The notes beneath the pieces are model-generated. The model had not been told where the DNA came from, made no database searches, and worked only from the letters and a program-made list of their open reading frames with translations. A stretch of DNA of 64,000 bases. Source: Kribbella flavida DSM 17836. GTDB lineage: Bacteria > Actinomycetota > Actinomycetes > Propionibacteriales > Kribbellaceae. Within the stretch, counting starts at the first letter, position 1, and every line of letters begins with the position of its first letter. The stretch covers positions 5,952,001 to 6,016,000 of the forward strand of contig NC_013729.1 in assembly GCF_000024345.1 (NCBI RefSeq), given 5' to 3'. Below are positions 36,807-51,429 of the stretch, in pieces. The position numbers and the translations under genes were made by a program.

Positions 36807-36830
36807 TCACACGTTGAAGCGGAACTCCAC
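36807..36830 (-). other. Displaced native 3' end of ychF at attL
   Basis: Read on the minus strand, these 24 bases encode V-E-F-R-F-N-V and a TGA stop. GDVVEFRFNV is the usual ending of bacterial YchF. The real ychF gene, 12.5 kb to the right, now ends in a different tail, so this is the original ychF terminus cut off by integration of the mobile element. Confidence 0.9.
36815..36827. repeat. attL core of the integrated element
   Basis: The 13-bp sequence tgaagcggaactc occurs here and again at 49324-49336, the two points where ychF sequence meets element sequence. Identity stops on the left after the core's first base outward (acgt versus ggac) and is patchy on the right (cacc versus gacc). 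A short core of this type is expected for large serine integrases. Confidence 0.85.
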
Positions 36831-36853: not shown

Positions 36854-38233
36854 GTGAGCGCAGCCCAGAAGCGAGCGGCCCTGTACCTCCGCATCAGTCT
36901 CGATGCTACCGGCGAGATGCTCGCCGTTGAGCGGCAGCGGGAGGACTGCTTGAAGCTCTGCCATGACCGAGGTTGGTCGGTCGTCGCAGAGTTTGTGGAC
37001 AACAGCATCAGTGCTAGCGACGCCCGGAAGAAGCGTCCCGGGTATGACGCTCTTGCCAGCGCTTACGATGCCGGTGGTTTCGACGCCTTGGTCTGCTGGG
37101 ACCTGGACCGCTTGACGCGGCAGCCACGGCAGCTTGAGGACTGGATCGACAGGGCTCGATCCGGCGGACTGGTCATCGTCACCGCGAATGGTGAAGCAGA
37201 CCTCTCAACAGACGGCGGGATGCTGTTCGCCCGCATCAAACTGGCTGTCGCGCGCGGAGAGGTTGACCGGAAAAGCGCCCGCCAGACACGTGCGCTTCAG
37301 CAGCGAGCAGACCTCGGCAAACCTCCGCTGGGTGTGCGCCTCACGGGATACACCAGCAAAGGTGTGGTAATCGAAGACGAGGCGAGAATTGTCCGGCGTA
37401 TCTTTCAAGAGTTCATCAATGGTGAATCCCTCAAGGGCATCGCAGGTCGATTGCAAGCCGACGGCATCGAGACACGTCGCGGCGGGCGCTGGAACTCATC
37501 ATCGATCGCAACAATTCTGCGCAACCCCCGTTATGCCGGATTGGCCATCTACAAAGGTCAGGCGACAGGAAAGCAGGGACAGTGGGAACCGCTGATCTCC
37601 GAAGACCAGTTCGCCTTGGTGCAATCCCGGTTGGCCGACCCTCGGCGCAAAACCAACAAGGTTGGCACCCATCGACGACACCTAGGCAGCGGACTATTCC
37701 TATGTTGCGTGTGTGGCTCAAGAATCTACGCTTGGTCGGGCGACCGCTACCGGTGCCCGAACACGTGCCTCGTTCGGTCCATCGCGCCGGTTGATCGATA
37801 CGTGAACGCGGTGATTAGGGCTCGTCTCGGCCTAACCGATGTTCTGGCGAGGATGCGGAAAGCACCTGCTGAATCTGCTGCACCACTGGAAGCCGAGGCC
37901 AGGGAACTACGAGCGCGGTTAGAGCGAATCGAAGGTGACTACGACGCCGGTCATATCGATGGCCGCCGCTATTCAGCAGCGACTGACAAGGTACGCATCG
38001 AACTGCAAGCAATAGAACGCAAGCTTGCAGTCATTAGCGGCGACGCTCCGCTAGTTGACCTGCTGAATCGACCTGACCCAGCCGCCGCATTCGACAACCT
38101 CACGTTGATGGCACAGAGGACTGTTCTAGACAGCCTCATGACCGTGGTCTTGCGGCCGGGGAAACACGGCAGCAGGACATTCGATCCCGCGACTGTACCC
38201 ATTCTTTGGAATGGCGCGACAACTCTCGCATGA
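36854..38233 (+). CDS. Large serine recombinase (integrase)
   Basis: A 459-residue site-specific recombinase that would catalyse attP x attB integration. Residues 1-150 are the resolvase domain with the catalytic Ser15 in RAALYLRISLD, plus ALVCWDLDRLTRQPRQLEDWID. The recombinase domain follows (LGVRLTGYTSKGVVIEDEARIVRRIFQEFINGESLKGIAGRLQADGIETRRGGRWNSSSIATILRNPRYAG), then a zinc ribbon (LFLCCVCGSRIYAWSGDRYRCPNTC) and a coiled coil (PLEAEARELRARLERIEGDYDAG). GTG start; TACGAT is seven bases upstream, so transcription may begin only 40 bp from the att core. Codon use is less GC-rich than host genes. Confidence 0.94.
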   Translation: MSAAQKRAALYLRISLDATGEMLAVERQREDCLKLCHDRGWSVVAEFVDNSISASDARKKRPGYDALASAYDAGGFDALVCWDLDRLTRQPRQLEDWIDRARSGGLVIVTANGEADLSTDGGMLFARIKLAVARGEVDRKSARQTRALQQRADLGKPPLGVRLTGYTSKGVVIEDEARIVRRIFQEFINGESLKGIAGRLQADGIETRRGGRWNSSSIATILRNPRYAGLAIYKGQATGKQGQWEPLISEDQFALVQSRLADPRRKTNKVGTHRRHLGSGLFLCCVCGSRIYAWSGDRYRCPNTCLVRSIAPVDRYVNAVIRARLGLTDVLARMRKAPAESAAPLEAEARELRARLERIEGDYDAGHIDGRRYSAATDKVRIELQAIERKLAVISGDAPLVDLLNRPDPAAAFDNLTLMAQRTVLDSLMTVVLRPGKHGSRTFDPATVPILWNGATTLA

Positions 38234-38528: not shown

Positions 38529-38577
38529 TGACAAAAATGACAGAAGTCGCGTTTTGTCATTTTTGTCATTTTTGTCG
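38529..38577. repeat. Hairpin and iteron-like repeat at the end of the helicase gene
   Basis: A perfect 14-bp inverted repeat (tgacaaaaatgaca / tgtcatttttgtca) with a 12-base loop, followed by a further 9-base copy, so that TGTCATTTT recurs in tandem with 9-bp period. It overlaps the helicase stop codon. It could end the helicase mRNA, or serve as an iteron for replication initiation; sequence alone does not decide. Confidence 0.7.
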
Positions 38578-40200
38578 GGGGCCTTGGAGGGCGGCGGGGT
38601 GAACGTCGTAGGCGATGGATGGTCGACCACGTCCGGGTTTGTTTTCTCGAAGCCGGATGTAGCCGTGATCGATGAGGACGCGAAGCGGGGCTTCGAGATC
38701 GGCAGCAGTGTTCAGGCCACTTCGGCCGTTCTTGGCTCGCAACAGGTCCCGACGGGTGAAGGTCTCTTGTCCGTGGTCGTTGATCCAGGCAAGGACCTCG
38801 CGGGCGTCGTCCAGGTCTGGCTCAGACCGCCCCATGAGGTCGTAGACCGCTAGAGCGTGGTCCAGGTAGTAGCGGCCGACGCGCTCGGCGGCGCGCATCG
38901 TGTCGGCTGTGATGGGGGCGGCGAAACCAGTGGTGAAGGTGTGGGCCAGGTGGAGGAGTGCAGCCAGCCGGACGACGGCACCGGCGAGCTTGGACGCCCA
39001 ATCGGTGATGGCTGCAAGTTGCCCGGTCGTCGGGTGGAGGCGAGGCTCAATCCAGTCCTGAAATTCGAGTAGGACCCGTCGGGCCTCGGGTGTGAGTTGC
39101 AAGTGGTGCGGACTGTCACGTTCGGCCAGAACCAAGACGAGAGCCTTGAGGGATTCGCGGTATGAGGATTCGATCGACTCCGGAACGGGTTCGGCTTGGT
39201 TGTTGCGCGTGCCAACCGTGTTAACCGGCAGGCTGTAGAGGATTCGGGCAATGACACCTCGGTCACGGAAACCGGGTTGCGCCGCTAGCCCTTGCAGCGT
39301 GCCGGGCTGGGTGGTGACTCCAAGCGTGAGAGCGGGCCGTTCAATCGACTCGGACTCCCGACCTTTGCGGTCAACCTGGATCGGGTCGCCAGCATGACCC
39401 TTCAGAAAGACTCCGAGATTGGGGGCCGCTGAGTAGCGGGTGCCTGTGAGGGTGGCGAATACGTCGCCTTCTGCCGACAAGACGGCGATCCGTCCGCCCT
39501 GCGCAGCCATAAGGGAAACGCACGCCTCCGGAGTCACGTCATCGGTCATCAGTTGCGGCAGCGCAGGAACGACGATCGCAGCCGCCTCCTTAGCCGCAGC
39601 AGTCGCATCAGCCAATGCCTCCTGCTGATTGGCGCTGGCGCGTTCGGCCTTCTTGGCAAGGTCTTCAGCACGAGCAGACGCGACGCGCGCAGCCAGCTCG
39701 GCTTCTACTCGTCGCTCAGCAGTGGTCTCCCGAAGCGTCTGCTCGGCATCGCTGAGCGGACCTGTCATCGCTCGGAACACCGGTGACTTGCGCGACCCCG
39801 GGGGCAGCGCGGTGACGGTGTAGAGGTTGATCTGTTCTAGCCAGGACCGATCGACCTGCACCAGCACCTTGCCACCGGCTGCCGTGGAGAGGCAGGCCAG
39901 GGCGACCGACCCAGCGAGATCAGCAGGCGTCTGGGTAGCTTCAGCCACAGCCGTGACGTGATCCGCCAGCCAGCCGGGAAAGACCTCAACCGGGAACGGT
40001 CGGAGCAGCCGGTCTGTCTTGAGGGGCACGGGAGCGCCATCCCACACCGGCCCTGCCTCGACGGCGGCCGGTCGCTCCATGGGCTCGTGATGCATGGGTG
40101 TGCGCTGAGGTCTGATCGGTGTAGGCGGCAGGGGTTCCCACGGGTCTTCGGGCGGCTCATCCAAGCCGATGAGCCAGTCAGGGAGCTGCTCGGCGCTCAT
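38566..40200 (-). CDS. DUF3987-family replicative helicase-like protein
   Basis: A 544-residue AAA-type protein. The DUF3987 core shows LAGSVALACLSTAAGGKVLVQVDRSWLEQINLYTVTALPPGSRKSPVF (Walker-A-like PPGSRKS), ISVLSAEGDVFATLTGTRY-type AVLSAEGDVFATLTGTRYS and a C-terminal helix-turn-helix region (HGQETFTRRDLLRAKNGRSG). A coiled Ala/Glu-rich insert spans about residues 170-215. Paired with prim-pol it would unwind and replicate the excised circular element. Start overlaps the prim-pol stop (ATGA). Confidence 0.85.
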   Translation of the reverse strand: MSAEQLPDWLIGLDEPPEDPWEPLPPTPIRPQRTPMHHEPMERPAAVEAGPVWDGAPVPLKTDRLLRPFPVEVFPGWLADHVTAVAEATQTPADLAGSVALACLSTAAGGKVLVQVDRSWLEQINLYTVTALPPGSRKSPVFRAMTGPLSDAEQTLRETTAERRVEAELAARVASARAEDLAKKAERASANQQEALADATAAAKEAAAIVVPALPQLMTDDVTPEACVSLMAAQGGRIAVLSAEGDVFATLTGTRYSAAPNLGVFLKGHAGDPIQVDRKGRESESIERPALTLGVTTQPGTLQGLAAQPGFRDRGVIARILYSLPVNTVGTRNNQAEPVPESIESSYRESLKALVLVLAERDSPHHLQLTPEARRVLLEFQDWIEPRLHPTTGQLAAITDWASKLAGAVVRLAALLHLAHTFTTGFAAPITADTMRAAERVGRYYLDHALAVYDLMGRSEPDLDDAREVLAWINDHGQETFTRRDLLRAKNGRSGLNTAADLEAPLRVLIDHGYIRLRENKPGRGRPSIAYDVHPAALQGPRQK

Positions 40201-41075
40201 GCTGCGGCGATCCCTTCGTCCCGAAATCCGCTGGTGATAGCCGCCTGGATGTCGCGTGGCGTTTGGGCGGCTTGATGTCCTACGTCAGTGAGGGCGGTGA
40301 TCGCGTCGGTGCGGTCGAGTGCACCGGCCGCAACCATCCGCGCAACGCCTCTGGCGGCCCCGTAGAGCGTCGTTCGGCGCTTGCCGGTGGGTGCGTTCCG
40401 TACGGCGTCCAGGTGAGCGCTGAGGAGCCTGTCGGGGTGGGAGATGCCCCCGCCCGCTGTGGTCGCGACTGGGGTTCGCGGGTGCGTGTGCGATTCGGCC
40501 GGCGTGGGCGCGGGCAGGCACGCGGTGACCAGAGCGGGGGGCATCTCCACCACGTCGTTGCCTGCGGTTCCCCAGCGGTACGGACGGTGGGTGCGGTGGT
40601 GGATCGAGGGCGGCAGGACGACGTAGCCGCCGTCTGCTTTGACGTCGATTCCGGGCCGGTTCGGCATCGGCCGCGAGGGCAGGTGCTGGCCGGGGTGGCG
40701 GTAGTACAGGTGCAGGCCACCGGAGCCGGTGTGCACGTGCCGGGTGCGCGGCACGAGCCCGGCCGTCATCAGGTCGGACAGGCTGGCGTCGCCACCGTGT
40801 GCGGGGTCCACGTCGATCACGGCCAGGCCGGACACGGCACCGGTCCTGACGGCGAGCTGGCCGCCCGGTACGGCGTTGATGATCGCGGCCAGGCGAGCCG
40901 GGTCGGTGGTGGCGGCGTAGAACCCGTGGCAGGTCAGGTGCCCACAGGTATCCGGGGCGTGGGCGTCTTTCGGGCAGTCCGCACAGTTGGCCACGGGGCG
41001 CTTAGAGCGTCCAAGCATGAACACCGGCCAACCGCGTCCGGCGGCGTCCAGTGCGGCGTTCAGCAGGTGCGTCAT
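40197..41075 (-). CDS. Bifunctional DNA primase/polymerase (prim-pol)
   Basis: A 292-residue archaeo-eukaryotic-primase-type protein. It begins HLLNAALDAAGRGWPVFMLGRSKRPV and has GLAVIDVDPAHGG (metal-binding D-x-D), HVHTGSGGLHLYYRHPGQ and DVKADGGYVVLPPSIH, all standard prim-pol motifs. With the DUF3987 protein it forms the RepPP-type replicon of AICEs. Cys residues near the N-terminus (NCADCPKDAHAPDTCGHLTCHG) form a probable zinc knuckle. AGAGGAC lies upstream of the ATG. Confidence 0.92.
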   Translation of the reverse strand: MTHLLNAALDAAGRGWPVFMLGRSKRPVANCADCPKDAHAPDTCGHLTCHGFYAATTDPARLAAIINAVPGGQLAVRTGAVSGLAVIDVDPAHGGDASLSDLMTAGLVPRTRHVHTGSGGLHLYYRHPGQHLPSRPMPNRPGIDVKADGGYVVLPPSIHHRTHRPYRWGTAGNDVVEMPPALVTACLPAPTPAESHTHPRTPVATTAGGGISHPDRLLSAHLDAVRNAPTGKRRTTLYGAARGVARMVAAGALDRTDAITALTDVGHQAAQTPRDIQAAITSGFRDEGIAAA

Positions 41076-41106: not shown

Positions 41107-41535
41107 TCAGGCGGCGACGTAGCGGTCAGCGTCAGCGGTCATGCACAGGTGGCAGCGGCCGTCTGAGGTCGGGATGCAGTAGTCCAGGACTTGGCGGCAC
41201 TGTCCGCAGGTGCGGCGGGCTTGCATGGCCTTGTCCAGGGCGTTGAGCTGGGCGGGTGACGGGATGCGGGAGGGTCGGGCGAGGTCGAGCCGGTAGAGCC
41301 AGGCCCAGCGCTGGCCGTTGCGCCATACGAGCAGGGCGTAGGGCTCGTGGCCGCCTGGGCACATCCGCAGTGCGCGGAGCTGGCGGCGGGTGGCGAGTCC
41401 TGCGGGTGCCCAGCGGAACTTGAAGACCGGGGTGCCGTGCAGGTCCCAGCCGAGGGCTTGTTTGCCGTTCCACAGGGTGATGAATCGGGACGCGGCGGGG
41501 TGCAGGCTGGCCTTGTCCATCAGCCGCCCGGTCAC
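41107..41535 (-). CDS. RRQRL-motif-type zinc-binding protein
   Basis: A 142-residue protein with ATRRQLRALRMCPGGHEPYALLVWRNGQRWAWLYRLDLA and a C-terminal zinc-finger (RRTCGQCRQVLDYCIPTSDGRCHLC). It matches the small AICE/plasmid family named for its RRQRL motif (here RRQLRAL). Function unknown, probably DNA- or protein-binding in transfer or replication. GTG start overlaps the upstream gene's TGA (GTGA); an ATG five codons in is the alternative. Confidence 0.75.
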   Translation of the reverse strand: MTGRLMDKASLHPAASRFITLWNGKQALGWDLHGTPVFKFRWAPAGLATRRQLRALRMCPGGHEPYALLVWRNGQRWAWLYRLDLARPSRIPSPAQLNALDKAMQARRTCGQCRQVLDYCIPTSDGRCHLCMTADADRYVAA

Positions 41536-41903
41536 TTCTTGTCGCCTTTGCTGACGGTGTTGGTTCCGGCGCCCCGGGCGGCGCGGATGTAGTTGATGAC
41601 GTGGCGGCCGATCCGGACCCGCATGCCGGAGCCTTGGCAGCGCCCGCAGTACCGGTAGGCCTTGCCGAACGGCGATTTGTGCTTGCCCGCGCCGTTGCAG
41701 CGGCGGCAGCGGCCGAACGGCCAGATCAGGCAGGTGAGCAGGTAGAAGGCGATGACGCCGGTCACGATGAGTGTCACCGTGGCGGCTTGGGTGATGGTGT
41801 GGACGGTCACGGTCAGGTCGGCCGCCAGGGGCAGCGAGCCGCTACCCTGGCCGCTACTGTGGGTAGTGGCGGTGTGGGTAGAGGTAGCGAGGGTGCTGGA
41901 CAC
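41532..41903 (-). CDS. Membrane protein with DnaJ-type zinc motif
   Basis: A 123-residue protein with one hydrophobic helix (ATVTLIVTGVIAFYLLTCLIWPFG) followed by CRRCNGAGKHKSPFGKAYRYCGRCQGSG, a CxxCxGxG-type zinc-ribbon as in DnaJ, and a basic tail. The family recurs in AICE operons but its role is unknown; a membrane part of the transfer machinery is plausible. GTG start with GGAGGC upstream. It lies between the GGTAGCG array and the RRQRL-type gene. Confidence 0.68.
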   Translation of the reverse strand: MSSTLATSTHTATTHSSGQGSGSLPLAADLTVTVHTITQAATVTLIVTGVIAFYLLTCLIWPFGRCRRCNGAGKHKSPFGKAYRYCGRCQGSGMRVRIGRHVINYIRAARGAGTNTVSKGDKK

Positions 41904-42047
41904 GGAAAGCCTCCAGAGGGCTGTTTTTGGGCGTGAGGAGCCGGGGCCGCGACCCGCTACCTGCGGAGATACGGCCTGGTCAGGGTGGAGTTGTGGGGTA
42001 GCGGGACGGGTAGCGTTGCCGCTACCGGTAGCGCCTGGCGCGCTACC
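41840..42047. repeat. GGTAGCG/CGCTACC array, candidate clt (TraB recognition) locus
   Basis: Eight exact GGTAGCG or CGCTACC heptamers (starting 41840, 41883, 41955, 41997, 42009, 42020, 42027, 42041) and one CGCTAC (41852) lie in 208 bp, in both orientations, some as inverted pairs. By chance far fewer than one would be expected. The cluster borders the 3' end of the TraB-type gene. In Streptomyces conjugative plasmids, the clt locus with 8-bp TRS repeats bound by TraB lies in just such a position. Confidence 0.72.
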
Positions 42048-42077: not shown

Positions 42078-44321
42078 TTACGCTCCGTTGATGTTGTTGC
42101 GGCGCTCGATCGCGGCGCGGATGTCGTCGGCGCGGGCACCCTTGCGGTTCACGCCGTCGCGCTTGACGTCGCGGCTGGGGACCTTCAGCGCGCGGGCCTG
42201 TGCCGAGATCGCGTCGGGGGTGGTGCCGTCGTACTGCTCGGGCATCTGCTCGGCCAGCCGTCCGGCGATCGCCTCCCAGTGCGCGGCGGTGTCGGCACCG
42301 AGCACGGTGAGGATGTCGGCCAGCACGTCGCGGCTGGCCCGCTCGATCTGTTCCCCGGCCGCCTCGCCGGTCAACAGGTTCAGCGCCTCGCGCTGCTTGC
42401 GGGCGGCGGTCAGGATCTTGTCGGCGTCGGAGGCGTCGGCCAGGAACGTCCGCACGGTCGGGGTCGCATCCGTCGCGCCGTACAGGTAGCCGACGCCTTT
42501 GAACTTGTCCCCGACCGGCAGCGTGGAGGCGTCGTAGCCCTCGGAGTAGGCGTCGCCACCGAGCACGGCCATGGACACGTCGCGGTTGCCGCACTTGAGC
42601 GCGAATCGCACGGTGTGGTTGTCGCGGAACCGGTTGAACAGCCGCTGCACGTCACCGGCACCGACACCGGACGGCTTCTGCGAGCTGGACAGCAGCCAGA
42701 CACCGGCGCTGGGGCCGACGGCCTGGATCATCGACAGCTTGCGGGCGATCTGCTTGTTGACCTCCTGGTCCTCGGTCTCGAAGTACTTCTGGAACTCCTC
42801 CATCACCAGAATCCACACCCGCAGCTCGGGGTAGCGCGGGTCGCGGGCCAGCTCCTCGGTCAGCGTGCCGTTGGGGCACACCTCGACCGGCAGCGTGGTC
42901 AGCAGGTCGTTGACCTTGACGATGTGGTCGAGGACCTCGTCCAGGGCGGCCAGCAGGTGCCCGATCGGGTCGGAGTCGTTCACGTTCGGGACCTCACCGA
43001 AGATGATCCGGTGCGCGACCTTGCGGAACGCCAGCCAGTCCGGCGAGTTCTTGCCATCGGCAATGATCAGCTTCACGTGCGGGTCAAGGGCGGCGTGCAA
43101 GGCGATCAGGCGAGCCGAGAACGTCTTGCCCTTGCGGGGCTGCGCACCGACCAGCACCGAGAACCACGGCAGCGACAGCCACACCACGTTGCCGCGCTCG
43201 TCCAGGCCGAACCGGACCGGGTTCCACACCGAACGGCGCTTGCAGTCCAGCATGTCGGTACGCCCGGCCGGGATGCCCAGCGGGTCCACGTCAGCCACGA
43301 ACAGCTTGTGACGCCGCGACGATGAGTCGTCCGGGGACAGGAAAACCTGACGCTCGTGCACGTCCAGTCCCGACGCGATCTTCTCCCGGGCTTTCAGGGC
43401 GTCTGACCAGCCCAAACCCCACGGCAGATCGATCAGGACCTCGGTGCCGGTGTTGGACCGGTCCCGCGACATAGTGGACCCGAAGTTGACCTGCTTGTCG
43501 GTCTTGTCCGGGTTGCCCAAACCGGCCGCGTAGTAGGCACGCAACACGATGTCGGAGTTGAGCTTCCGGAACCGGGGCGCGACCACAGCGGTACCGACCA
43601 GAGTCTGACCAGCCGGGCGGCCGTAGTGCGCCAGCGCACCGACCGCACCGGCACCAGCAGCCAACAGAGCGGCCGTAGGAGCCATGTTCAGCGCGACCGG
43701 CGCACTAACGGCAAGGCCGATGTTCTGGGCCGCCAGAACGCCACCGCGCCACGCACGAGTTGCCTTGACCTGGCGGTGGATCTGGCTCCACTCCTTGAAG
43801 GCCTTTTCGTCAGCCGCCTTCTGGTGAAGGGTTTCCGCGCCCGGCACCCACCACCACCGGATCTGGTTACGGACCAGCCGCGTGAAGCCGCGCCCGGCGA
43901 ACCAGGCCAGCTTGATCCCGTACCAGGGCGAGCGGACCGCGTGGAACAGCGTCACGTGACCGGCCTGGGCCAGCGCCCGCGAGATCGTGCCGCGCAGGTT
44001 GCCCGGCAGCAGGTGCACCGGGATGATCGGCTGCCGCGCGCCTTCCTGGACCGGCACGGCCACACCGGGAACGTCCACCGGCACCAGGACCTTGCCGGTG
44101 GCCGGGTCGTCGTCGGTCAGGTCCTCGTCCAGAGCGACTTCGTAAGCGGTGTCCATCCGCTCGACGTCACCCGCCGACAGCGGGACCACCGCGCCGGCCG
44201 AATCGTCTCGGTCGCTGGCAGCGTCCCGGGTCGTGTCCTGCGGGGCGTCGTCGCGGCGGGCGCGGCGGGCCTCCAGGTCGATCGGCTCGGGCAGGTTCTC
44301 AGCGTGGTTCTCGGTCATCAC
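42078..44321 (-). CDS. traB: FtsK/SpoIIIE-type conjugative DNA translocase (TraB-like)
   Basis: A 747-residue ATPase that would pump double-stranded DNA between mycelial cells. It has membrane helices at about 195-240 (QNIGLAVSAPVALNMAPTAALLAAGAGAVGAL), Walker A GAQPRKGKTFSARLIALH, Walker B RVWILVMEEFQ, SSSQKPS sensor region and a C-terminal winged helix (EQYDGTTPDAISAQARALKVPSRDVKRDGVN), the part that binds TRS repeats in studied TraB proteins. The candidate TRS array lies 31 bp beyond its stop. Its start overlaps the Spd-like gene (ATGA). Confidence 0.92.
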   Translation of the reverse strand: MMTENHAENLPEPIDLEARRARRDDAPQDTTRDAASDRDDSAGAVVPLSAGDVERMDTAYEVALDEDLTDDDPATGKVLVPVDVPGVAVPVQEGARQPIIPVHLLPGNLRGTISRALAQAGHVTLFHAVRSPWYGIKLAWFAGRGFTRLVRNQIRWWWVPGAETLHQKAADEKAFKEWSQIHRQVKATRAWRGGVLAAQNIGLAVSAPVALNMAPTAALLAAGAGAVGALAHYGRPAGQTLVGTAVVAPRFRKLNSDIVLRAYYAAGLGNPDKTDKQVNFGSTMSRDRSNTGTEVLIDLPWGLGWSDALKAREKIASGLDVHERQVFLSPDDSSSRRHKLFVADVDPLGIPAGRTDMLDCKRRSVWNPVRFGLDERGNVVWLSLPWFSVLVGAQPRKGKTFSARLIALHAALDPHVKLIIADGKNSPDWLAFRKVAHRIIFGEVPNVNDSDPIGHLLAALDEVLDHIVKVNDLLTTLPVEVCPNGTLTEELARDPRYPELRVWILVMEEFQKYFETEDQEVNKQIARKLSMIQAVGPSAGVWLLSSSQKPSGVGAGDVQRLFNRFRDNHTVRFALKCGNRDVSMAVLGGDAYSEGYDASTLPVGDKFKGVGYLYGATDATPTVRTFLADASDADKILTAARKQREALNLLTGEAAGEQIERASRDVLADILTVLGADTAAHWEAIAGRLAEQMPEQYDGTTPDAISAQARALKVPSRDVKRDGVNRKGARADDIRAAIERRNNINGA

Positions 44322-45893: not shown

Positions 45894-47009
45894 GTGGGTC
45901 GAGGGCAAACCCTCACTGGCTTGCAGGGTTCGGACGACGTGCCCGAGCTGGGTGTCGTATCCGGCTACCTGCTCAAGCTCATTCGCGGATCGCTCGGGTG
46001 CACCCAAGTGGAGCTAGCCGAGCGGCTCGGCGTGGATGACAACACGGTGCAGGGCTGGGAGAGCGGCAGGCGGCCACTGTCGGCGCTACGTGCTGTCGAC
46101 CTGAGCAGACTCTCTCAGCGGCTGACTCTGCTCGGTGCGCCAGCGGTTGCCACTAGTCTGCTAGCGACGGCAATCGAGGCTGACGGCTTCCTGACGACCG
46201 CGATTCGGGCAGGTAGCGCGGAAATACCAATCTGGGAGAATCCCCTAGCTAGCAGCGTTCACCGCCGCAGTTTCGTCGCGTTGGTTACGTGGCCATTTAC
46301 GGGCATCGTTCCGTCAACAGTTCGCCACCTGCCAATTCCGAAGGGCCGCGGTCCGGTTGCCGACAGACCGCAACTCTCAAGAGCGATGCAGCGGCTGTTC
46401 TTCGACCAAATGCTGACTTCTGCTGAGATCGCCGGTCATCAGGCGACTCTGCTTAGGCGGCAGGCCACTTACTTGCTGGCATTTGACGATCGAAAGGAAT
46501 CTGCACAGTGGCTCGCGAGGGAACATCGGCGCACAGCAGCACGTGCTATAGATGAGCGCGATTTGCCCTCCGGGATTTTAAGCCGCACAGCATCATTGGC
46601 AATTGCCAGACAAGGGGACTTGGATCCGGTTCGCCACTTCATTCAGGGAACACTTGCAGATAACAATCAAACCCTCGCCAGCCTCACCTACTGGGCGTAT
46701 TGGCTCGGTGAGATACCTGAGACCTTTAGCGATGACGGAGAAATGGTTGAGCTGGGAGCTCGATCCTGGTCAGGCCACCGTCTAATAGAACACCTAATTA
46801 CGCACCTAGACGATCCACGCAACGCCGAGATGAACATTCACAGCCTGCTTTGCCTCGTCATGGCCAGAAAGGAACTTCTTGAATCAGACGCCGATCTGCG
46901 CCAGCGGACCGCCCTCGCTATCGAGCGCGCGGACACCAACGAACTTGGCCGGCATGCACGAACTGAACTGGCAAACCTACGCTTCGCGACGCAACTCGCT
47001 GGGCGCTAA
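45894..47009 (+). CDS. XRE-family regulator with long C-terminal domain
   Basis: A 371-residue protein. Residues 20-75 are an XRE HTH (YLLKLIRGSLGCTQVELAERLGVDDNTVQGWESGRRPLSALRAVDLSRL); the rest is a helical domain with RAMQRLFFDQMLTSAEIAGHQATLLRRQATYLLAFD and AREHRRTAARAIDERDLPSGILSRTA, not assigned to a family. Proteins of this kind precede HD-domain genes in several AICEs and may control excision or transfer. Clearly more A/T-rich than host genes after about residue 100. GTG start with GGAGGAGG about ten bases upstream. The HD gene follows after 14 bp. Confidence 0.75.
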   Translation: MGRGQTLTGLQGSDDVPELGVVSGYLLKLIRGSLGCTQVELAERLGVDDNTVQGWESGRRPLSALRAVDLSRLSQRLTLLGAPAVATSLLATAIEADGFLTTAIRAGSAEIPIWENPLASSVHRRSFVALVTWPFTGIVPSTVRHLPIPKGRGPVADRPQLSRAMQRLFFDQMLTSAEIAGHQATLLRRQATYLLAFDDRKESAQWLAREHRRTAARAIDERDLPSGILSRTASLAIARQGDLDPVRHFIQGTLADNNQTLASLTYWAYWLGEIPETFSDDGEMVELGARSWSGHRLIEHLITHLDDPRNAEMNIHSLLCLVMARKELLESDADLRQRTALAIERADTNELGRHARTELANLRFATQLAGR

Positions 47010-49294: not shown

Positions 49295-50392
49295 TCAGTT
49301 CTTCTTCGCGCCAGACGTTGGACTGAAGCGGAACTCGACCACGTCGCCGTCGGCCATGACGTAGTCCTTGCCTTCCATCCGGACCTTGCCGGCGGACTTG
49401 GCGGCGGCCATCGAGCCGGCTTCGACCAGGTCGTCGAAGGAGACGATCTCGGCCTTGATGAAGCCGCGCTGGAAGTCGGTGTGGATGACGCCGGCGGCCT
49501 CGGGGGCGGTGGCGCCCTTCTTGATCGTCCAGGCGCGCGACTCCTTCGGCCCCGCGGTCAGGTAGGTCTGCAGGCCGAGGGTCTCGAAGCCGACCCGGGC
49601 CAGCACGTCCAGGCCGGGCTCCTCGACGCCCATCTCGGCGAGCATCTCGCGGGCCTCGTCCTCGTCGCCCAGCTCGACCAGCTCGGCCTCGAACTTGGCG
49701 TCCAGGAAGATCGCCTCGGCCGGCGCGACCAGGTCGCGCATCTGCTGCTTGAGCGACTCGTCGGCCAGCTCGTCGGCGTCGCAGTTGAAGACGAACAGGT
49801 ACGGCTTGGCCGTCATCAGCATCAGCTCGCGGATCGCGTCGCGGTCCACCGTCGTCGCGATGATCGGCGTACCGGCCTCGAGGTGCTTCTGCGCCTCGCG
49901 CACCGCCTCCAGGACCGCGACGCTCTCCTTCTTCAGCCGGGCTTCCTTCTCCAGCCGCGGGATCGCCTTCTCGACGGTCTGCAGGTCGGCCAGGATCAGC
50001 TCGGTCTGGATGGTGGAGATGTCGTCGGCCGGCGAGACCTTGCCGTCGACGTGGGTGACGTCGTCGTCGCGGAACACCCGGGTGACCTGGCAGATCGCGT
50101 CCGACTCGCGGATGTGGCTGAGGAACTTGTTGCCCAGCCCCTCACCCTCCGAGGCGCCGCGCACGATGCCGGCGATGTCGACGAACTGCACGGTGGCCGG
50201 CAGCTGCTTGGCGGAGCCGAAGATCTCGGCCAGCGTGCCCAGCCGCGCGTCCGGCACCCCCACCACGCCGACGTTGGGCTCGATCGTCGCGAACGGGTAG
50301 TTCGCCGCGAGCACGTTGTTCTTGGTCAGCGCGTTGAAGAGCGTGGACTTGCCCGCGTTGGGGAGCCCGACGATTCCGATGGAGAGTGCCAC
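49295..50392 (-). CDS. ychF: Redox/ribosome-associated GTPase YchF (OBG family), 3' end replaced by the element
   Basis: A 365-residue GTPase. G1 is GIVGLPNAGKSTLFNALT, switch region NYPFATIEPNVGVV, G3 DIAGIVRGASEGEGLGNKFL; the C-terminal TGS domain has FETLGLQTYLTAGPKESRAWTIKKGATAPEAAGVIHTDFQRGFIKAEI. YchF normally ends ...VVEFRFNV; here it reads VVEFRFSPTSGAKKN, because the last codons come from the integrated element. The lost native end sits at 36807-36830. The protein should still fold. GTG start (VALSIGIVGLP) with TACCCT eight bases before it. Confidence 0.95.
   Translation of the reverse strand: MALSIGIVGLPNAGKSTLFNALTKNNVLAANYPFATIEPNVGVVGVPDARLGTLAEIFGSAKQLPATVQFVDIAGIVRGASEGEGLGNKFLSHIRESDAICQVTRVFRDDDVTHVDGKVSPADDISTIQTELILADLQTVEKAIPRLEKEARLKKESVAVLEAVREAQKHLEAGTPIIATTVDRDAIRELMLMTAKPYLFVFNCDADELADESLKQQMRDLVAPAEAIFLDAKFEAELVELGDEDEAREMLAEMGVEEPGLDVLARVGFETLGLQTYLTAGPKESRAWTIKKGATAPEAAGVIHTDFQRGFIKAEIVSFDDLVEAGSMAAAKSAGKVRMEGKDYVMADGDVVEFRFSPTSGAKKN
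49324..49336. repeat. attR core within the ychF 3' end
   Basis: Second copy of tgaagcggaactc. On the minus strand it encodes E-F-R-F of YchF. To its left the sequence is of element origin and encodes the new tail and stop. Confidence 0.85.
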
Positions 50393-50487
50393 GGACGCCA
50401 AGGGTACGCGCCCGTCCCGGCTCGCCCCAATCCGCGCAGGCTCGGCCCTCGGACGAACCACCCGCGGACCTGCGGCGTCTCCCCACT

Positions 50488-51429
50488 GTGACGACAGGAA
50501 AAAGGGCCGAGACTTCGTCACGCGTCGTGTCCGCGTGCTCGCAGCTTCTGCGGTTCGGCTGGCTGCAGGTGGTGTCCTGCCTGTTCCCCTTCGCGCTGTT
50601 CGTGGGGCTCGCCGTCGCGCAGTACGCCGACCTCCCGATCCCCCGGTACGACGCTCTGCTGGTCTACTGCCTCGCCCTGACCGCGCTCTTCAGGGTGGTC
50701 GGGCTGGAGACGTGGCGGGAGGTCGCGGTGATCTTCGGCTTCCACCTCGTCGGGCTGGCGCTGGAGCTGTTCAAGGTGCAGGTCGGGTCCTGGCAGTACC
50801 CGGGCGACGCGGTCACCAAGATCGCCGGCGTGCCGCTGTTCGCCGGGTTCATGTACGCCGCGGTCGGCAGCTACCTCTGCCAGGCCTGGCGGCGGTTCGA
50901 CCTGCGGGTGAGCGGCTACCGGCCGGTGGCGACGACGCTGCTCGCGGTCGCGGTCTACGCGAACTTCTTCACCCACCACTGGATCGTCGACCTGCGGGTG
51001 CCGATCGCGATCGCGCTGCTGCTGACGCTACGGCGTACGTGGGTGTTCTACTCGGTCGGCCGGCGGCGGTACCGGATGCCGCTCGCGGTCTCGTTCGTGC
51101 TGATCGGCTTCTTCCTCTGGCTGGCCGAGAACGCCGGCACCTTTCTCGACGCGTGGAACTACCCCGACCAGGTCGACGTCTGGCAGCTCGTGCATCCGGC
51201 GAAGTTCGGCGCCTGGGCGTTGCTGGTCAGCATGAGCTTCGTACTGGTGGCGAGCGTGAAGTCGTTGGAGGGCAAGCTCTACCACCGCGGCGCGGTCGCC
51301 ACCGTCAGCACGCCGCAGGCGACCCGGCCGACCGCGGCCGACGCCGCGCAGCTGGCTGACGCGAAAGCGACCGAGATCTCTCTGCAACACGGAAAAGTCA
51401 ACCGGGGCAGGGATCCGGGCGTCTCCTGA
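50488..51429 (+). CDS. DUF817-family membrane protein
   Basis: A 313-residue integral membrane protein with about eight helices, among them VSCLFPFALFVGLAVAQYADL and LLVYCLALTALFRVVGLETW. The sequence FGFHLVGLALELFKVQVGSWQYPG followed by AGVPLFAGFMYAAVGSYLCQAWRRF is typical of DUF817 proteins, whose function is unknown. A hydrophilic tail of about 50 residues follows. The GTG at 50488 is chosen; others are possible. It is divergent from ychF. Confidence 0.8.
   Translation: MTTGKRAETSSRVVSACSQLLRFGWLQVVSCLFPFALFVGLAVAQYADLPIPRYDALLVYCLALTALFRVVGLETWREVAVIFGFHLVGLALELFKVQVGSWQYPGDAVTKIAGVPLFAGFMYAAVGSYLCQAWRRFDLRVSGYRPVATTLLAVAVYANFFTHHWIVDLRVPIAIALLLTLRRTWVFYSVGRRRYRMPLAVSFVLIGFFLWLAENAGTFLDAWNYPDQVDVWQLVHPAKFGAWALLVSMSFVLVASVKSLEGKLYHRGAVATVSTPQATRPTAADAAQLADAKATEISLQHGKVNRGRDPGVS

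Follow-up and report, generated by a model that had tools for sequence, protein, structure and literature searches.

The window, by which we mean the whole 64,000-nucleotide stretch of DNA analyzed here, carries at 42078–44321, on the minus strand, a traB-like gene coding for a 747-aa DNA translocase of the FtsK/SpoIIIE type (PHROG FtsK/SpoIIIE-like, E 3.6e-17). The protein is 32% identical to TraB of pSVH1 across 342 aa of the motor (E 2e-32), and it matched no family of Pfam or NCBIfam at E ≤ 0.001. On the same strand follow the next gene, whose translation is a small membrane protein with CxxC motifs (41532–41903), a gene for an RRQRL-motif zinc-binding protein (41107–41535; NF041638, 3.8e-38), and a replication module (38566–41075) in which family and PHROG matches identify a Prim-Pol (40197–41075) and a DUF3987 helicase (38566–40200). 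On the other side of traB, a DUF6284 gene and a gene for a 345-aa protein lie between it and the gene of an HTH regulator (45894–47009, plus strand). A serine recombinase (36854–38233, plus strand; PF00239 and PF07508), the integrase, occupies the left end of the element, and a repeat comparison gave a candidate attL beside it, the 13-bp direct repeat TGAAGCGGAACTC at 36815–36827 (plus strand). The identical 13 bp are found again at 49324–49336 (plus strand) as a candidate attR, inside the 3′ end of a gene (49295–50521) which, from its protein sequence, we take to be ychF-like. A match of 13 bp is weak by itself, as one of 12 bp arose in the same comparison; the same 13-bp pair also flanks a related element in another genome (G009). 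An integrase, a replication protein, and TraB are thus found within one element, between direct repeats at 36815 and 49324 that are candidate att sites, and the locus is probably an integrated AICE (actinomycete integrative and conjugative element), some 12.5 kb long.

The GGTAGCG array downstream of traB

The first-pass annotation had described, beside traB, eight exact copies of GGTAGCG or its complement CGCTACC within 208 bp, in both orientations, plus a six-base copy, and had proposed that this array is the TRS/clt of the element. Our recount of the window sequence gave the same copies: the exact ones start at 41840, 41883, 41955, 41997, 42009, 42020, 42027, and 42041, and the six-base copy is CGCTAC(T), equivalent to AGTAGCG, at 41852–41858. 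A near-copy that had been missed, CGCGACC (GGTCGCG), lies at 41948–41954 and abuts the copy at 41955, bringing the candidate clt/TRS array (41840–42047, no strand assigned) to ten sites in total. A gap of 30 bp separates it from the stop codon of traB (42078–42080), and at its far end the exact copies at 41840 and 41883 and the six-base copy fall within the first codons of the next gene. The five sites nearest to traB form a block (41997–42047, no strand assigned) whose spacing we compared across loci; read from traB, it consists of a site, 7 nt, an inverted site, 0 nt, a site, 4 nt, an inverted site, 5 nt, and a further inverted site. Beyond this block, on the minus strand, the exact copy at 41955 and the near-copy make a tandem pair, GGTAGCG-GGTCGCG (41948–41961), which lies downstream of a conserved stretch, TGACCAGGCCGTATCTCCGCA. 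A second conserved element, of the TGA[CT]C[AT]G[GC] type (41962–41982, minus strand), separates the two halves of the array. A cross-locus count found it in 81 of 113 loci vs. 8 of 113 control stretches taken inside traB, and it may serve as a promoter or as another binding site. An element of this type is also present in pSVH1, as TGACCTGC.

Throughout the 7.58 Mb of the source genome GGTAGCG occurs 942 times, which corresponds to 0.026 copies expected per 208 bp, and the Poisson probability of at least eight in such a stretch is about 5e-18. The window as a whole contains 25 copies, vs. 7.9 ± 2.7 in shuffled sequences. The motif is therefore not equally dense elsewhere in the chromosome, a finding that the first-pass annotation had said would speak against its proposal. 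Single pairs of the word, on the other hand, are not special. The head-to-head arrangement GGTAGCG-N0-30-CGCTACC is found seven times in the genome (three times in the array, once at a second TraB element, and as three lone pairs elsewhere), and a backwards control of the pattern gave five matches per strand. Direct pairs 2–15 nt apart are found five times (three in the array, one at the second TraB element, one elsewhere), vs. 17 matches of the backwards control, whose word is itself 2.8 times commoner than GGTAGCG (2679 vs. 942). The case for the array rests on the cluster and on its conservation. The second TraB element (locus L010, C1:3587306–3589492) encodes a TraB 73% identical to the one in the window, and its array has five exact copies plus partial ones.

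Conservation of the array

Related elements with near-identical TraB C-termini but without the motif, which had also been named as grounds for giving up the proposal, were not found: all 18 loci of the same genus with a TraB at least 70% identical (L010–L025, L039, and L040) keep the array, with 5–10 exact copies of GGTAGCG within 500 nt after traB. Two further loci of the genus (L026 and L027), with TraB about 30% identical, have zero copies. Loci of Actinophytocola, Kibdelosporangium, Fodinicola, Actinopolymorpha, Kineosporia, and Actinomadura have 4–10. GGTAGCG is absent from L050, L061, and L065 and occurs once or twice in L053, L054, and L058; these loci are poor in it because their word differs. 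In L047 and L066 the sequence is truncated or interrupted ahead of the array. The register of the five-site block is found across loci, with 7, 0–1, 4, and 5–6 nt between successive sites. Its central part, a site followed after 4 nt by an inverted site, is present in 44 of 53 loci whose word is GGTAGCG and in 12 of 15 whose word is GGTCGCG, and all five sites are in register in 20 of the 53 and 9 of the 15, respectively. In L230, an array of the word GGTAACG has the same spacing, with one site degenerate. The geometry of the array is thus largely conserved among related traB loci, in several actinobacterial families.

Looking beyond chromosomes, we found no relative in phage records at E 1e-20 and four matches in plasmid records. 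Among the three of these plasmids that were read, that of Streptomyces NBC_00562 has TAGC-containing repeats after traB, no such repeats were seen in the Pseudonocardia alni plasmid, and the S. decoyicus plasmid was ambiguous. Viral contigs of IMG/VR also carry TraB genes (L102–L105 and L248–L255), several of them with an array, and are possibly AICEs catalogued as viruses. The idea that elements residing in one cell always differ in their word was dropped, since two elements of one class reside together both in the source genome and in G817.

The replication module does not share this conservation, and here a different role for the repeats has to be weighed. Some plasmid origins are iteron arrays, that of pWTY27 for example according to the accessible text of PMC3583192, and the repeats in the window lie about 1 kb from the Prim-Pol; they could then be an origin bound by the replication initiator of the element, the Prim-Pol or the helicase. 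However, the repeats do not stay with the replication initiator. Across GGTAGCG loci the relatives of the window's Prim-Pol are 56–89% identical, about 30% identical, or missing at E 1e-4, and the DUF3987 helicase and RRQRL genes are present in some loci and absent from others, so that the replication module varies but the array remains. Moreover, two elements described below (L184 and L185) have traB and a portion of the next gene in common, beyond which their DNA is unrelated, and the word tracks residues of TraB. We consider an iteron-type origin very unlikely.

Covariation of the repeat with the TraB wing

To compare words, we retained 113 distinct loci, having dropped those with less than 250 nt downstream of traB or with both an identical C-terminus and an identical downstream stretch. 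With a threshold of at least four copies of a word, 53 loci were labeled GGTAGCG, 15 GGTCGCG, 5 GCTAGCG, 3 TGTAGCG, and 1 GGTAACG; the 36 loci with no label include remote FtsK-like genes. In many relatives the word shifts in the same register, to GGTCGCG, GGTAACG, TGTAGCG, or GGTAGGG. These shifts bear on the idea that the inverted pairs act as hairpins in a transcript. Two head-to-head pairs do lie side by side in the window, and their loops would be 7 and 4 nt long, but unpaired single sites switch word together with the paired ones, the loops vary, and the word tracks protein residues; we give next to no credence to an RNA structure. Three GGTCGCG arrays (L158, L159, and L185) retain one GGTAGCG, in the second position of the tandem pair. 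The GGTAGCG array of the window holds its GGTCGCG at this same place.

A scan of the TraB alignment columns in a first set of 68 loci (the 53 GGTAGCG and 15 GGTCGCG loci) ranked residue 725 first and residue 724 second in separating the two words. Valine, threonine, or asparagine at 725 goes with A at base 4 of the word, and alanine or serine with C. The residue carries 0.69 of the 0.76 bits of information in the label in this set, and 0.88 of 0.95 bits (93%) in a set of 109 labeled loci. When labels were simulated on a TraB tree built without the C-terminus, retaining only those that came close to the observed label in their numbers of C rows and of changes, none of 1000 reached the value of residue 725, either for the 68 loci (best 0.80 vs. 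0.91) or for the 109 (best 0.84 vs. 0.93). The word label needs at least nine changes on the tree, and well-supported branches force six for the GGTCGCG group. A sign test on phylogenetically independent pairs gave about five pairs in the same direction, none opposite, and one tie in the first set (median p 0.0625), and four, none, and one in the 109-locus set (median p 0.125), i.e., it points in the right direction with too few pairs for significance.

The same comparison speaks to a possible function in partition. Streptomyces plasmids carry spdA palindromes with a role in stability, as stated in the accessible part of PMC4170104, and the array might likewise serve partition or stability, with an Spd/ParB-like protein binding to it. 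Yet the neighboring membrane zinc protein does not track the word: in the 97 of 109 loci with a recognizable zinc part in the next gene, its best column reaches 0.45 of H, vs. 0.97 for residue 725 of TraB in the same 97 rows. In the Actinomadura set, moreover, the membrane zinc gene is replaced by another small gene. The column-by-column scan covered TraB and this zinc part, and on its outcome we judge a partition site highly improbable.

The rule linking residue 725 to base 4 was fixed before the arrays of new loci were inspected, and we applied it to 52 distinct held-out loci (57 minus five duplicates), most of them from the family that includes Phytohabitans and the others from viral contigs. 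When the whole phylum was searched for held-out loci, 2 of 391 genomes gave matches, namely the source genome and one that was already known. Thirteen of the 52 could not be scored (L230, L232, L234, L250, L251, L253–L256, and L271–L274), and the remaining 39 were tallied by eye. The rule was right in 37 of these, comprising 12 of 12 loci with V or T and 25 of 25 with A; L219, where GGTAGCG and TGTAGCG tie with four copies each, was scored by comparing just the two heptamers that the rule names. The 25 GGTCGCG loci all have one wing type (K/R-ALKG) and are mutually related, so that they should not be counted as 25 separate confirmations. The rule failed in L224 and L235, where the wing is RSPKG, with S at the decisive position, and the word is still GGTAGCG. 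Over all 109 labeled loci, 98 of the 100 in which the rule speaks agree with it; three others have P (two with C, one with A), and six are without a parsed wing. Besides the two RSPKG loci, L064 is an exception with an EPRKG wing and GGTAGCG, and two arrays are mixed (L168, five against four; L049, four against three). The rule fails in the context of GGTAACG, as L065 and L271, the latter with three copies of GGTAACG and below the scoring threshold, have A at the wing position and yet A at base 4.

Other positions of the word may be linked to the wing as well. Base 5 is A in all four scored loci with P, A, or V at residue 718 vs. none of 113 with N, D, S, or G, although the word sets for this count were chosen after viewing the arrays, and seven further rows, all with G at base 5, lack a parsed residue. 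The GGTAAC-type arrays of L230, L271, L065, L140, and L150 go with A, V, or P at 718 instead of N, D, S, or G. Two loci with GGTAGGG arrays (L232 and L256) have the wings VNKNG and VNNQG, without the usual K/R-G. The links of residue 718 to base 5 and of the wing to base 6 were drawn from these sequences after the fact and in few loci, and are suggestive only. More distant words were also seen. In two viral contigs (L251 and L253) the array stands at the same position with the word GGAAC, often GCGGAAC, and the wings are ASLWG and ASSLWG. Remote TraB genes (L083, L085, L087, L088, and L089 of family f22, as well as L072 and L093) are directly followed by arrays of a CTAGC type, a candidate clt of the f22 group. 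We take f22 to be Streptomycetaceae because the TraB of a named Streptomyces plasmid is 56% identical to that of L085.

A natural swap is seen in one genome (G406), which carries two elements, L184 with GGTAGCG and L185 with GGTCGCG. In 60-nt windows, their traB genes are 92–100% identical from about −1000 to −160 (85% in the first window), and 82 and 88% identical in the part coding for the winged helix-turn-helix (wHTH); this comparison leaves aside the 5′ part of traB, which lies beyond the contig ends. Of the amino-acid differences between the proteins, 3 fall within the first 304 of 351 shared residues and 17 within the final 47. Identity drops to 30–77% in the array region, and the next gene is 88–100% identical across about 180 nt, with unrelated DNA beyond. 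Within the shared stretch, then, the change of the array was accompanied by that of the wHTH and by few others; the DNA past the next gene, being unrelated, could hold another binder.

To place these residues in the protein, we used an AlphaFold model of the C-terminus of TraB (a piece of 112 residues), which predicts a winged helix with a mean pLDDT of 94–97 for the blocks that span positions 31 to 100 of the piece. In the model the wing hairpin comprises residues 717–730, approximately, and residues 724–725 open the second wing strand, after the turn. The recognition helix contains the residues S.Q.R, conserved among 59 aligned rows. A Foldseek search of the PDB with the model found nothing at E ≤ 0.001 (best E 0.045); the best structural match has a middling Z of 6.3, and most of the matches listed are winged-helix proteins. 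When PDB sequences were searched with a profile of the C-terminus, no match stood out from chance (best E 0.026). That TraB ends in a winged helix is thus a prediction of the model. A translocase whose C-terminal winged helix reads a short G-rich word is familiar from the FtsK gamma domain and KOPS, and this likeness would extend to TraB and GGTAGCG. KOPS sites are dispersed and polar, whereas the array in the window is compact and has sites in both orientations, and no FtsK gamma chain was among the 50 structural matches listed.

Discussion

The closest point of comparison is pSVH1, whose TraB recognition sequence is GACCCGGA. As a positive control, GACCCGGA was among the top 8-mers of the plasmid: five copies, four one way and one reversed, follow the stop codon of traB within ~115 nt, and two more lie elsewhere. 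The repeats of pSVH1 therefore stand at the same place relative to traB as the array in the window, next to the related motor mentioned above. The word is another one, however, and mostly in direct repeats, instead of dyad pairs in a fixed register; and specificity in pSVH1 is ascribed to helix alpha3, whereas in the AICE family it is the wing that tracks the word. More generally, the C-terminal wHTH of TraB recognizes 8-bp motifs, according to the parts of PMC3583192 (which cites Vogelmann 2011) and PMC4170104 that are accessible. Two other clt loci have short repeats of 7–9 bp, namely TGACACC, four times in pWTY27, and CCGCACA[CG][CG], nine times in pJV1; those of pWTY27 stand at the end of the tra gene and were footprinted with TraA (PMC3583192). 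These are plasmids with other words, and the accessible text describes neither a family-wide geometry nor word switching.

The position of the array is also what might be expected of an operator through which TraB or a regulator of the element controls the next gene or operon, with the transfer function located elsewhere. The sites span the region between the genes and reach the start of the next coding sequence, and the second conserved element sits between them. Against this, ten sites are many, the repeats of pSVH1 occupy the same place, and in pWTY27 the stretch at the tra end was not only footprinted but required for transfer (PMC3583192, accessible text). We find it unlikely that the array is an operator alone; the two roles are not exclusive, and TraB bound to clt may repress too.

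We conclude that the array is very probably the clt of the AICE, where the C-terminal winged helix of TraB would bind for the transfer of double-stranded DNA. Several copies of a short word stand beside a tra gene, the adjoining gene codes for a TraB translocase of the FtsK/SpoIIIE type, and the word goes with the C-terminus of TraB, with L064, L224, L235, L065, and L271 as exceptions. A different word is usually matched by one or two altered residues in the wing. Conservation of the array, its covariation with the wing, and the position of the pSVH1 repeats all favor the first-pass proposal that GGTAGCG is the TRS of this element, as far as sequence comparison can tell. By analogy with the known plasmid systems, TraB would be a membrane-anchored dsDNA translocase that binds the GGTAGCG sites through its C-terminal winged helix. 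Several sites, partly in head-to-head pairs, would load a TraB multimer onto the excised element, which would then be pumped into the recipient as double-stranded DNA. The recognition helix (S.Q.R) may read the constant part of the word, while residue 725 of the wing (V/T/N vs. A/S) would go with A vs. C at base 4, and residue 718 (N/D/S/G vs. A/V/P) with G vs. A at base 5.

The element resembles pSAM2, SLP1, and other AICEs in its integrase, Prim-Pol replication, TraB, and flanking repeats. The accessible text of PMC9513070 describes no clt motif for pSAM2, and in the accessible text of PMC3218068 and PMC6722414 AICE Tra proteins are said in general to bind a clt, with no motif given. In a literature search that covered few subscription journals, we recognized no clt motif of an AICE. 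This kind of locus is known, and as far as we have seen, the conserved dyad register, the change of word in place, and the link to wing residues are apparently undescribed. Tentatively, and as a real possibility rather than an expectation, we propose a wing code of AICE TraB proteins, to some degree dependent on context (residue 725 for base 4, 718 for base 5, and the K/R before the wing glycine for base 6), together with re-addressing by exchange of a small cassette that would be made up of the array and the ~45 codons at the end of traB. If this is true, elements residing in the same cell with otherwise near-identical pumps could transfer independently.

In actinobacteria, AICEs count as a main route by which genes spread. 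The array marks a definite locus across many genera, for which natural variants exist and specificity residues are predicted. With it, the orthogonality of elements, the mobilization of the chromosome at clt-like sites, and the reprogramming of a conjugation pump for double-stranded DNA would become directly testable.
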